From: a bacterium
Lineage (GTDB): Bacteria > JAJVIF01 > JAGGVT01
Direction of reading: 5' to 3'
DNA length: 27,860 nucleotides
NCBI GenBank assembly: GCA_021157815.1
Contig: JAGGVT010000086.1
Span: 1-27,860 of the forward strand
Position 1 is the first letter of the stretch; every line of letters begins with the position of its first letter. The position numbers were made by a program, and so were the translations under genes. Positions 16,152 to 21,311 of this stretch are shown here, in pieces. Under the pieces are notes generated by a model, which was not told the DNA's origin, did no database searches, and saw only the letters and a program-made list of their open reading frames with translations.

Positions 16152-17063
16152 GTGATTAGCTTGCGTAATCTAATGCGAAAGATACAAGATAGAATATGGG
16201 ATGTTGTCGAAGTGGCAAAACCAGGCGACAAAGCAAGCCGCTGGTTCGATATTGTCATCCTCTCGTTAATCGCTCTCAATGTGATAGCATCAATTCTCTG
16301 TACTGTCTCATCCCTTGCAAAACAATTCGGAACGTTCTTTCACTGGTTCGAGATAGTTTCTGTACTGATTTTTACTGGTGAGTACCTTATTCGCGTGAGT
16401 TCATGCACATCTGACTCAAGATATTCCCACAGTATCCCGGGGCGGCTCAAGTTTATGCTCACCCCAATGGCGCTCATTGACCTGTTTGCCATTCTCCCAT
16501 TCTACCTGTCATTCTTTATGGTTGACCTGAGAGCTATTCGAATCCTTCGAATGATTCGCATCTTCCGTGTCGCAAAGATGGCAAGGTACAGCCAGTCGAT
16601 GCAGTTGTTTGGCAATGTTTTCCATAAAAAGCGCGAAGAACTTGTTCTGATTGCTGTTTTTATGTTCTTCACAATTATATTTTCATCATCCATTATGTAT
16701 TACGCTGAACATAACTCACAACCTGATGTTTACAAGGATATTCCATCAACGATGTGGTGGGCGGTTGTTACTCTTACAACTGTCGGTTACGGTGATATAA
16801 CCCCGGTAACATCAATCGGAAAGACAGTTGCCGCTTTAATTTCGATTACTGGAATCGCCATGTTCGCGATTCCCGCCGGTATCCTTGGAGCTGCTTTTGT
16901 CGAGGAATTTTCACATAAACGAGCACAAGATAGTATTTATCTGAAATGCCCCCATTGCGGGAAAAAACTGGATAACGACCTCTTTAATAAAGCAGTTGAC
17001 AAGAAAGATAAATCGATTTCCCCTGAAATAGAGAAAATATCAGAAGCTGTTTCCGCGAAATGA
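16152..17063 (+). CDS. Six-TM voltage-gated potassium channel with C-terminal Cys pair
   Basis: The 303-residue ion-transport protein has S1-S3 at about 32-52, 62-80 and 104-122. The S4 voltage sensor has arginines every third residue (R127, R130, R133, R136, R139). S5 is at about 164-184, followed by a pore helix, the selectivity filter TTVGYGD (209-215) and S6 at about 225-250. The filter identifies K+ selectivity. The cytoplasmic tail carries one CPHCG knuckle (about 266-270) and a charged end. The start is GTG 16152; a second possible start is ATG 16173, and no clear Shine-Dalgarno site decides. The stop codon abuts the last base of the convergent TIR gene with no gap. Confidence 0.92.
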   Translation: MISLRNLMRKIQDRIWDVVEVAKPGDKASRWFDIVILSLIALNVIASILCTVSSLAKQFGTFFHWFEIVSVLIFTGEYLIRVSSCTSDSRYSHSIPGRLKFMLTPMALIDLFAILPFYLSFFMVDLRAIRILRMIRIFRVAKMARYSQSMQLFGNVFHKKREELVLIAVFMFFTIIFSSSIMYYAEHNSQPDVYKDIPSTMWWAVVTLTTVGYGDITPVTSIGKTVAALISITGIAMFAIPAGILGAAFVEEFSHKRAQDSIYLKCPHCGKKLDNDLFNKAVDKKDKSISPEIEKISEAVSAK

Positions 17064-20000
17064 TTAAAGCGGCTCTTTTGCCTTTATCAGCCAGATTCTG
17101 GCATCCGTGTACGACGGGTAAATCTCCAGGGCTTTTTTAATATTCTCAACAGCTTTGCCATGGTCGCCTTTTTCCTCGTATGTCAGCCCCAGATAATAGT
17201 AGCCTGCTGCTTTACTTGATCTTTTCTTAATCATGTTAGTATATGTTGAGACAGCGTCATCAAAATTGCCTGAGAATTTATATGCAGTCCACAATCCAGC
17301 CTGGGCGGATTTATAATTTGAATCAAATTGCAGTGATTTTTTAAATGCCTCAATCGCGTTAACCCATTCGTATTTGGCGTTGTATGCCATCCCAAGATAG
17401 TAATACCCCTGCTTGTTTCGTGGATCCAGCTGAGTATATTTCTTGAAATCATCTATCGGCGCCTGTAGATTCTTGCCCAGTTCCATGTATGCCCGTCCGC
17501 GATAAAGATAAGCCATTCTATCGTTGGAACTTAGCTGGATAACTTTTGTAAAACTGGCAACCGCGCTCTTGTATAGCTCTTCCTTTTTCAACTTTGTATA
17601 TGATGTACCCTCCTGAGCTTTCTTAAAGTAGGTCAGCCCAATGTAATACCACGCGCTTTTATAATTTGGGTCTTTCGCTACCGCTTTTTTCAAAATGCCA
17701 ATCGTGTCATCATAAAGCCCCTTATCAAACTTGCCCATCGCCGTATCGAACAACCCCTTTGCAGTGCTGCTTTCAACGGGTCTTGGTTCAGGTTTTGGTT
17801 CGATTTCCGATGGCTTTGGTTTTCCCTCTTCTTTTGGTTTTTCAACAGGCTTTGGAGGTTTCACAGGTTCCGGCTTTTTGCTTATTATCAGCTCAATCTG
17901 TTCCGGTGTTATGCTCATAATGTTGATTTCCTCAGGCAACTCAGGCGGTATAGACGCAATCAAATGAGTTCCATCCGCATACGACGAGACATCCAGAACA
18001 CTGCTCAATGATGTTGAATCAAAACCTTCCACCTGCTCATCGGGAATTTCAATTTGAATTGATAGTAAATCGGGCTTTATAACATACTCAAGCTCATCGC
18101 TTTCACCTGATAGTTCAACAGGTATGTCAGCCACATCAATCAGTTGAACAGCAGTCTCCTCGGCAAACGGTTCAATATCAATATTCAAATTAACGGTTTC
18201 AGGTTCAATTGTTATTTCAGAACCGGGTGAAATCAATTGGACATCGATTGATATATCCTGATTTATCTCTCCTAAAAAGAGAAATTCCGTTTTAATTGCT
18301 TTCAGCGCATTTATTATTTCCTCATCGCCATCCACGGCAATATCCGGAGGAGTTATCACCATTGACGCTATTTTATAACCCACAGATGGCTCTATTTCTA
18401 TCTGCAATTCGACCGGAATTCTAATCTCAACCGGTTCTTCAATTACTTCCTCAACTGGCGCTGGAGAGGGTTTTCGCATTATGTTCAAATTGGCAATTTT
18501 ATCGAAAAAGCTATTTTCAGGAAGGTTTGAAATAAAAGGCGGCAGAAGAAATAAAATAACGATACCCCATAAACAAAGAGAAGCAGGCGCAAGCCATGGC
18601 GAAACAATATCCTTTAATGATTTGCGAGTTCCCCTCAGCACCATAAGAAGATTCTGCGCAATGAAATCGTGAGCGACCTCCCAGACATCATCCTTCTGGT
18701 CTATTTGTCGCACCAGTCCGGCATTTGCCAGAAGATTCAATGTGCCCTTTATTTCGTTTTTAGGAATCCCCGTGCTCAGCATAAGGTGGCCGATTGTTCT
18801 GGGAACAGTAGTGCCAAGCGCGGTAACCATCTGTTCAAGAATGTCCGGAGCATGGTCTTTCATTTCACGGCGATACAGGTTATAACGCAGGTATTCAGCC
18901 ATAAGGTTTTCTGTTTTCTTCTGGCGCGCATCCGATTGGGTTTCACCTGATTTTTGGACTATCATTCCAACCATATTCAGGATGATCGGCCTGACAAGCC
19001 CTTTTGTGCCCTCAAACGCGGCTATCTGCTCAAACAGGTCGCGCAATGCGCTGTCGGAGAACATAATGTTGGAGCCTTTAAGAAACTCACGAGCCGCGGA
19101 TTCAGTAAACGCACCGACCTCAAACCAATTCTTGCGAATTGTCAGATTCGGCAGATCGAAATTCTCTAAAAGCGGAAGGTAATCGCTCCTGAATGACAAC
19201 AGGAAAGTCAGTCCGGGAATTGGATCATCGCATAGTGAGCTTAGCAAGTCATTCATCTCTTCAAGCCTGTCCGGTGATCTGTCCTGCAGAATTAGAAGTT
19301 CCTCGAACTGGTCAAAGATAATAAGCAATCGTCCGGGAGCCGCGTTGGATACCGCTTTTGCCAGAAGAGCTCTTATATCCAAATCCTTTTGCGCCGTAAA
19401 TGTGTCAACTATAGACAGCCTGAGAAGTTCATTTCTCAAATCCTTAAGCGGATTATCGAACGACCGTATCGTTATAGTCATCACAGCCGGATCCTGCTTC
19501 TGAAGCATAGGGCTGACATACGCCTGAAGAATGGATGTTTTCCCTGTCCCCGATTGCCCTGAAAAGAACAACAGCGGCTCTGTGCTTCTCGCTATCCATT
19601 TAAACGCTTTTTCGTGAGCTTTATCCGCGCGAAATTCCTTCATGTAGTCAGGAATCGTTTCATACGGATAAGTGCGGAAATATTCCGGGTCCCTGATTCT
19701 GCCGGAAATTCCCACTTCCTCTATCTTTTTCTTTCTTCGATACCTGTTTATATGCCCAATAGCATCCGGGATGATTATCAGTACCGGTACAAGCACAATT
19801 AAAAGCGGAATCCATAGGTTGGTTATCATTATGCCACGTAAATCATCACTCAGGACAGCAAGTGTCATGAAGAAAATGAGAATGGCTCCAATGTAGATAG
19901 CCAGGCTCCGTGATTCTCGCCTGACGGGTTTTGAAATTGTGCTTTTTACAGCGCCTGATTGCACTGTCAAATTGCCTGATTTTCGTTCAGCAAGGAGTTT

Positions 20001-20387
20001 TTTTATTCCATCAAGCAGACGTCTTCCGTTTTCCTCTGTTACGCCGCTTAAAGCATCAAGCCAGTTTTTAGTGCTAAGGAGATACTCCATCTGCTCATTC
20101 GGCTCGATGTCCTCTACTCGAACCGCTATAATCGGTAATCCTTTGTTAAACGCAGACAGGATTTCAGAGGTAACATGATTTGAGCTCATAGAATTGCTTG
20201 AAAACACAAGCACAACGAGTTGAGAATTTTTAATCGCTCGGATAATTGATTTCGGATAATCGGCACCTGATGGAATATCACGAGGCGCCATCCAGCAGCT
20301 AAGACCTTGCGTTTCGATGATTTCGCACATCTGATTCGCAATCAAAGCATCTTCCGATGCGTAACTTATAAAAATTTCATGGGCCAT
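17064..20387 (-). CDS. TIR - STAND-type NTPase - YbbR-like - TPR membrane protein
   Basis: The 1107-residue multidomain protein reads in order as follows. The TIR domain (1-112) has EIFISYASEDA, CWMAPRDIPSGADY, and E75 in HVTSEI, the position of the catalytic Glu of NADase TIRs. TM1 (~161-179) and TM2 (~190-208) follow. The P-loop NTPase has Walker A GQSGTGKT (277-284) and Walker B LLIIFDQFEEL (354-364). A winged-helix-like region (~515-587) precedes TM3 (~602-620). Then come two YbbR-like repeats (~657-740, ~753-837; compare B. subtilis CdaR), a Pro/Lys linker (~838-871) and about six TPRs (~875-1107). Predicted topology puts TIR and NTPase inside, YbbR and TPR outside. TIR-NTPases are often immune or signalling receptors. 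The YbbR call is from pattern memory only. No Shine-Dalgarno site precedes ATG 20387. Confidence 0.88.
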   Translation of the reverse strand: MAHEIFISYASEDALIANQMCEIIETQGLSCWMAPRDIPSGADYPKSIIRAIKNSQLVVLVFSSNSMSSNHVTSEILSAFNKGLPIIAVRVEDIEPNEQMEYLLSTKNWLDALSGVTEENGRRLLDGIKKLLAERKSGNLTVQSGAVKSTISKPVRRESRSLAIYIGAILIFFMTLAVLSDDLRGIMITNLWIPLLIVLVPVLIIIPDAIGHINRYRRKKKIEEVGISGRIRDPEYFRTYPYETIPDYMKEFRADKAHEKAFKWIARSTEPLLFFSGQSGTGKTSILQAYVSPMLQKQDPAVMTITIRSFDNPLKDLRNELLRLSIVDTFTAQKDLDIRALLAKAVSNAAPGRLLIIFDQFEELLILQDRSPDRLEEMNDLLSSLCDDPIPGLTFLLSFRSDYLPLLENFDLPNLTIRKNWFEVGAFTESAAREFLKGSNIMFSDSALRDLFEQIAAFEGTKGLVRPIILNMVGMIVQKSGETQSDARQKKTENLMAEYLRYNLYRREMKDHAPDILEQMVTALGTTVPRTIGHLMLSTGIPKNEIKGTLNLLANAGLVRQIDQKDDVWEVAHDFIAQNLLMVLRGTRKSLKDIVSPWLAPASLCLWGIVILFLLPPFISNLPENSFFDKIANLNIMRKPSPAPVEEVIEEPVEIRIPVELQIEIEPSVGYKIASMVITPPDIAVDGDEEIINALKAIKTEFLFLGEINQDISIDVQLISPGSEITIEPETVNLNIDIEPFAEETAVQLIDVADIPVELSGESDELEYVIKPDLLSIQIEIPDEQVEGFDSTSLSSVLDVSSYADGTHLIASIPPELPEEINIMSITPEQIELIISKKPEPVKPPKPVEKPKEEGKPKPSEIEPKPEPRPVESSTAKGLFDTAMGKFDKGLYDDTIGILKKAVAKDPNYKSAWYYIGLTYFKKAQEGTSYTKLKKEELYKSAVASFTKVIQLSSNDRMAYLYRGRAYMELGKNLQAPIDDFKKYTQLDPRNKQGYYYLGMAYNAKYEWVNAIEAFKKSLQFDSNYKSAQAGLWTAYKFSGNFDDAVSTYTNMIKKRSSKAAGYYYLGLTYEEKGDHGKAVENIKKALEIYPSYTDARIWLIKAKEPL

Positions 20388-21015: not shown

Positions 21016-21045
21016 AATTTAATTTGTACCGGGTACGAATTAAAT
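21016..21045. repeat. GTACCGGGTAC palindrome, copy 2
   Basis: AATTT-GTACCGGGTAC-GAATT with further AAT/ATT extension. On the minus strand it contains the stop codon (21040-21042) of the gene fragment that follows. Confidence 0.8.
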
Positions 21046-21311
21046 CCTGTGCATTTCGTACATGGCGACGAATCCGCCCCAGCTCATTTCATAAGTAGAT
21101 TCATTCCACTTAGGCGTTTGTCCGATTGAGTTGATTGAGAAAATAAATGCGAGAAGATTCCCGTCATCATCGTACCATTCATATTTCAGTACTTTGAATA
21201 TGGGAATTACTATGGATGCCTCCATCACTGTTCTGAATAAAATCGCGCTTCTTGAGTTTTCACGATCCAACGGGATCGTGCAAGCGCCCATGCCAATCGC
21301 CAGCGTATCGT
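21040..21311 (-). pseudogene. C-terminal fragment of a 21355-type lipoprotein
   Basis: Read on the minus strand, about 90 codons from 21311 to the stop at 21040 match the C-terminus of the neighbouring lipoprotein. The fragment has YDTLAIGMGACTIP, YEWYDDDGNLLAFI, IGQTPKWNESTYEMSWGG and MYEMHRI; the neighbour has YTTEALGLGACRIP, YEWYDDNGNLLAMI, IGQETQWNEDTYEMNYGG and MYEMYRQ. Homology runs right up to a palindrome at each side (copies 2 and 3). There is no start site or signal peptide, and a plain ATG exists only inside. The best reading is a duplicated gene end, not a functional gene. Confidence 0.8.

Follow-up and report, generated by a model that had tools for sequence, protein, structure and literature searches.

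A predicted transmembrane STAND receptor joining a TIR domain to a CdaR-type ectodomain

Analysis of a 27,860-nucleotide stretch of bacterial DNA (hereafter the window) revealed a 1107-amino acid open reading frame on the minus strand (17064-20387) that begins with ATG, lacks internal stop codons and encodes, in order, a TIR domain, two transmembrane (TM) helices, an nSTAND1 NTPase, a third TM helix, two YbbR repeats, a Pro/Lys-rich linker and a TPR array. We propose that its product is a single-chain, NLR-like membrane STAND receptor that reads the state of the envelope and has a TIR NADase as its output, a reading to which we assign a probability of about 0.6. The order TIR, NTPase, TM, YbbR and TPR had been suggested by a sequence-only reading and is borne out by Pfam matches and hydropathy. 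The complete architecture is known from one MAG of a bacterium belonging to a poorly sampled phylum, and this single occurrence limits any claim of novelty.

TIR and STAND modules and membrane topology

The TIR_2 profile of Pfam matched residues 5-120 (20028-20375, minus strand) over positions 1-117 of its 122 positions (E 8.9e-20). A glutamate had been claimed at the NADase position, and E75 proved to be invariant across an alignment of 11 TIR sequences; in phmmer it aligned with the second glutamate of the Roq1 CLEEL motif and with a glutamate of oyster TIR-STING. Judged from this conservation, the domain is a putative NADase that has kept the glutamate of the NADase position, with E75 as its putative catalytic residue. 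The closest TIR domains, with up to 43% identity, come from another phylum, in which the TIR_2 subfamily of the window protein is present in 22 of 42 genomes.

Three hydrophobic segments had been noted, and hydropathy analysis placed their peaks at residues 161-179 and 188-206 (19770-19907, minus strand; values of 2.5 and 2.65), separated by a short loop, and at residues 602-620 (18528-18584, minus strand; 2.13), at the junction between the NTPase and the ectodomain. AlphaFold2 predicted helices with moderate confidence at the N-terminal hairpin (158-177 and 181-226). The NTPase with its winged helix occupies residues ~254-583 (18639-19628, minus strand) and was matched by the Pfam nSTAND1 profile at residues 269-583 (E 1.6e-14), and by NACHT as well (E 9.6e-8). 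Both Walker motifs had been recognized beforehand: Walker A (GQSGTGKTS) starts at residue 277 and Walker B (LLIIFDQFEEL) at residue 354, and both are invariant in a 28-sequence NTPase alignment. The AlphaFold2 model containing the NTPase reached a mean pLDDT of 69, with NTPase blocks mostly between 70 and 95. It resembles Apaf-1, MalT, a STAND-TPR protein, NLRC4 and Avs3 with Z scores of 14-15.5 over 250-300 residues; for model residues 254-590 compared with the first three of these, Z is ~15 and the rmsd 6-7 Å over ~270-300 residues. As modelled, the NTPase is a STAND fold with a winged helix. The first Foldseek matches of the model correspond to the plant TIR-NLR RPP1, with low structural TM-scores, as expected if the placement of domains differs. 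STAND NTPases are typically coupled to repeats (LRR, WD or TPR, for instance), and among conflict systems nSTAND1 has been named as a clade (PMC8195603). In most nSTAND1 homologues retrieved from named genomes, a single hydrophobic segment follows closely behind the NTPase; in those examined, WD40 or TPR repeats or an unassigned part come next.

On the C-terminal side, a Pro/Lys/Glu-rich linker apparent from the sequence (residues 839-878; 17754-17873, minus strand) leads into the TPR array (residues 879-1107; 17067-17753, minus strand), in which Pfam detected several TPR matches between residues 887 and 1093 with E-values down to 8e-15; a linker followed by TPRs had been claimed and was thus recovered. 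Another protein of this genome, 310 residues long, can be aligned to the TPR part along 229 residues with no gap (27.5% identity, E 3.5e-27); the TPR part scores 117 bits in its own genome and no more than 65 bits in any of 59 related or diverse genomes. This paralogue starts with MMRNLTFSILIIISVICIFTIVAC, carries a lipobox-type N-terminus (IVAC) and is probably exported as a predicted lipoprotein, which in turn supports an extracytoplasmic location for the TPR part of the window protein. Clusters rich in lysine and arginine flank the hydrophobic segments, namely KPVRRESR on the N-terminal side of the first, RYRRKKK on the C-terminal side of the second and RGTRK on the N-terminal side of the third. 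Hydropathy, charge and paralogues together support a predicted topology in which the TIR and NTPase domains are cytoplasmic and the YbbR and TPR parts lie outside. The same arrangement had been put forward earlier, and it agrees with the flanking charges, the lipoprotein-type paralogue and the membrane anchoring of CdaR.

YbbR repeats and their relation to CdaR

The region presumed to be the sensor begins with two YbbR repeats (residues 657-838; 17874-18419, minus strand). Pfam YbbR (PF07949) matched the first repeat only, at residues 657-736 (E 8e-10; 39.4 bits versus a cut-off of 22.3). A CdaR HMM was built from 22 CdaR sequences from other loci, leaving out the window protein. It scored 127.7 bits against residues 639-838, with an alignment extending to the C-terminal end of the model, and 71.3 and 57.5 bits against repeats 1 and 2 taken singly; none of 200 shuffled versions of the region was reported. 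The sequence-only reading had proposed two YbbR repeats and let the proposal hang on a significant HMM match to residues 657-837; such a match exists, and both repeats were recovered by the independent CdaR model. An AlphaFold2 model of residues 640-870, computed without homologues, had a pLDDT of 41.5, too poor for a fold search, and when the YbbR region was searched against PDB sequences, no relative and one chance match (E 0.55) came up.

Judged by these profile alignments, the window repeats correspond to the last two, C-terminal repeats and the tail of CdaR, the partner of the diadenylate cyclase CdaA, in which two consecutive YbbR repeats followed by a tail resemble residues 639-838. Unlike the window protein, CdaR is ~300-430 amino acids long, has one N-terminal TM segment and lacks TIR, NTPase and TPR domains. 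Only its C-terminal half is represented in the window protein, where the N-terminal TM and the full YbbR array are missing and the last two repeats stand after the STAND-TM module. The same genome also encodes a CdaR of its own on another contig (C103), where cdaA (DAC, E 3e-40) is followed by cdaR (three YbbR matches) and a glmM-like gene; the window gene is not adjacent to cdaA, and the cdaA-adjacent cdaR is a separate gene. 

Among 386 genomes, no sequence scores higher against the window YbbR region than this resident CdaR, as would suit an ectodomain that guards the c-di-AMP machinery or serves it as an integrated decoy, the C-terminal half of CdaR having been copied so that an attack on CdaR, or its displacement, is also felt by the receptor. 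Plant NLRs use integrated decoys. Under this reading, the window protein would be a transmembrane NLR-like receptor whose extracytoplasmic CdaR-module copy guards the c-di-AMP or envelope machinery and releases the cytoplasmic TIR NADase. That both repeats match the end of CdaR, namely its last two repeats and the tail, is in keeping with such a copy, as is the TPR module, likewise best matched by far within the same genome. However, identity to the resident CdaR amounts to 25.8% over 240 columns, and the YbbR-region tree did not place the window domain; together these exclude a recent copy of the resident CdaR and leave derivation from it unproven, and given the tree we make no claim of such derivation. 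Nor do we know of any attacker of CdaR, which also counts against a decoy, and we consider this reading unlikely, both for the ectodomain and for the receptor as a whole.

CdaR is generally considered to contact the cyclase through its membrane region. That region is absent from the window protein, which speaks against a housekeeping role as an envelope or c-di-AMP scaffold, where the TIR and NTPase domains would act in assembly rather than in NAD cleavage, and the YbbR repeats would bind CdaA or CdaR and tune c-di-AMP levels. Retention of the catalytic glutamate likewise argues against such a role. In its favour, the cyclase of Staphylococcus aureus is under the control of CdaR/YbbR and GlmM, both of which bind it (PMC11520302), and the gene has no defence neighbourhood; on balance we regard a scaffold as improbable.

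When residues 657-845 were used as a tblastn query, matches were found in 103 of 385 genomes, mostly in CdaR-sized frames and many of them covered over the full two-repeat span. Three long YbbR-containing frames from other genomes were considered and rejected: that of G233 (575 amino acids) is a multi-YbbR CdaR-like protein, and those of G004 and G275 did not match the CdaR HMM. Viral contigs gave no match with a CdaA alignment or DNA pattern, the genome-contig loci contained no CdaR, and A1 yielded no conserved stretch in the hunt for CdaR sequences.

Precedents for the architecture and genomic surroundings

Searches of four genomes from the phylum of this bacterium, of 385 diverse genomes and, with residues 1-860 as query, of 42 genomes from the phylum with the closest TIR domains turned up no YbbR fusion of this kind. 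Viral contigs searched with the window protein gave no match, nor did an exact short-peptide scan of genome contigs, which detects close relatives only and is weak evidence, and none of the papers searched mentions both YbbR and a TIR domain. The sequence-only reading had known of no described protein with this domain order. That part of the claim which concerns the complete order stands, since the same order was not found in the genomes searched, but nSTAND1-TM-repeat proteins, TIR/nSTAND1-TM pairs and TIR-TM-ectodomain proteins already occur. By comparison of sequences, the element that appears to be new is the CdaR-type ectodomain.

The first of these precedents comprises nSTAND1-TM-WD40/TPR proteins of cyanobacteria, Bacteroidota and others, which resemble the window protein in having an NTPase, then a single hydrophobic segment and then a repeat domain, but lack YbbR repeats and the N-terminal TM hairpin and have a different fused effector or none. 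The second consists of six loci (L080, L084, L112, L122, L135 and L140) in which a TIR gene and an nSTAND1-TM gene share a strand, the TIR gene lying directly upstream of the other or overlapping it; in contrast to the window, the two genes are separate and YbbR is missing. The adjacency seen in these six loci suggests that TIR is a recurrent effector of the nSTAND1-TM switch. Several TIR proteins of these two-gene loci are extended at the N-terminus by a part that, by eye, resembles SIR2, and PADLOC assigned no system to the tested NTPases.

The third precedent is provided by TIR-TM-ectodomain proteins (L172, L173, L187, L188 and L190) of the same TIR_2 subfamily, with TIR domains up to 43% identical to that of the window and propeller-like, TPR or FGE-sulfatase ectodomains after the TM; they differ from the window protein by their single TM and by the lack of a STAND NTPase and of YbbR. 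One of these loci (L187, 1052-15830; G414:C156) contains six consecutive TIR_2-TM-ectodomain genes on the same strand, with propeller-like or TPR ectodomains and TIR domains that share 27-43% identity with the window TIR where the two align, and looks like a tandem receptor array. Another locus (L171, 1566-5261) encodes a 1232-amino acid protein with the same TIR subfamily joined to what resembles, by eye, a nucleotide-cyclase and AAA region, with no early TM. More distantly, Avs-type STAND proteins and the plant TIR-NLRs RPP1 and Roq1 share the effector-STAND-sensor logic, and the NTPase model resembles Avs3, Apaf-1 and NLRs. Those proteins sense inside the cell, whereas the sensor of the window protein would lie across the membrane.

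The window gene is surrounded by genes for a K+ channel, a uvrD-like helicase, rbfA and subtilases, and no defence gene adjoins it. PADLOC found no strong system-protein match for its product, the best being weak local TIR matches (E ~1e-6 or worse). A search with STALD (PF18185) for a hint of a Thoeris partner gave no match, and the control was likewise silent. The K+ channel gene (voltage-gated type; 16152-17064) is convergent with the TIR gene and the stop codons of the two touch, leaving no spacer. On the other side, between 20903 and 21340, a 36-base near-palindromic repeat around GTACCGGGTAC occurs three times; two of the copies flank an 83-amino acid ORF (21040-21291) whose DNA, by eye, seems to duplicate in part the C-terminal end of a neighbouring 558-amino acid ORF.

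Occurrence in a single MAG might point to a gene-fusion oddity or an assembly artefact devoid of selected function. Against this, the 1107-codon frame and all motifs are intact, the domain boundaries respect folds, and the outer modules have diverged (26-27% identity) while keeping a well-conserved pattern. The base composition of the ORF segments is also roughly within the range of neighbouring genes, so that an assembly artefact was judged unlikely, and taken together a fusion or artefact without function is very improbable.

Proposed mode of action and implications

Under the preferred reading, an NLR-like membrane receptor, the YbbR repeats and TPRs outside the inner membrane would read an envelope cue that is probably also met by the resident CdaR or by TPR lipoproteins. 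A change in the ectodomain would be relayed by way of the third TM segment, and the nSTAND1 NTPase would respond by exchanging its nucleotide and oligomerizing. The cytoplasmic TIR domains, tethered to the membrane by the helical hairpin, would then be brought together as an active NAD-cleaving complex, which would exhaust NAD or generate a signal; when the envelope is attacked, for example through phage or toxin damage, the cell may stop growing or die altruistically.

To our knowledge, the bacterial STAND and TIR immune receptors described so far mainly detect intracellular cues. If a STAND receptor carried its sensor on the far side of the membrane, the STAND/TIR logic would reach out to the envelope, in a Toll-like topology. 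If the integrated-decoy reading were true, c-di-AMP control would be linked to TIR immunity in a bacterium. The YbbR ectodomain may also offer a handle on what the extracytoplasmic YbbR repeats of CdaR recognize, for which the read-out could be an easily assayed TIR enzyme.
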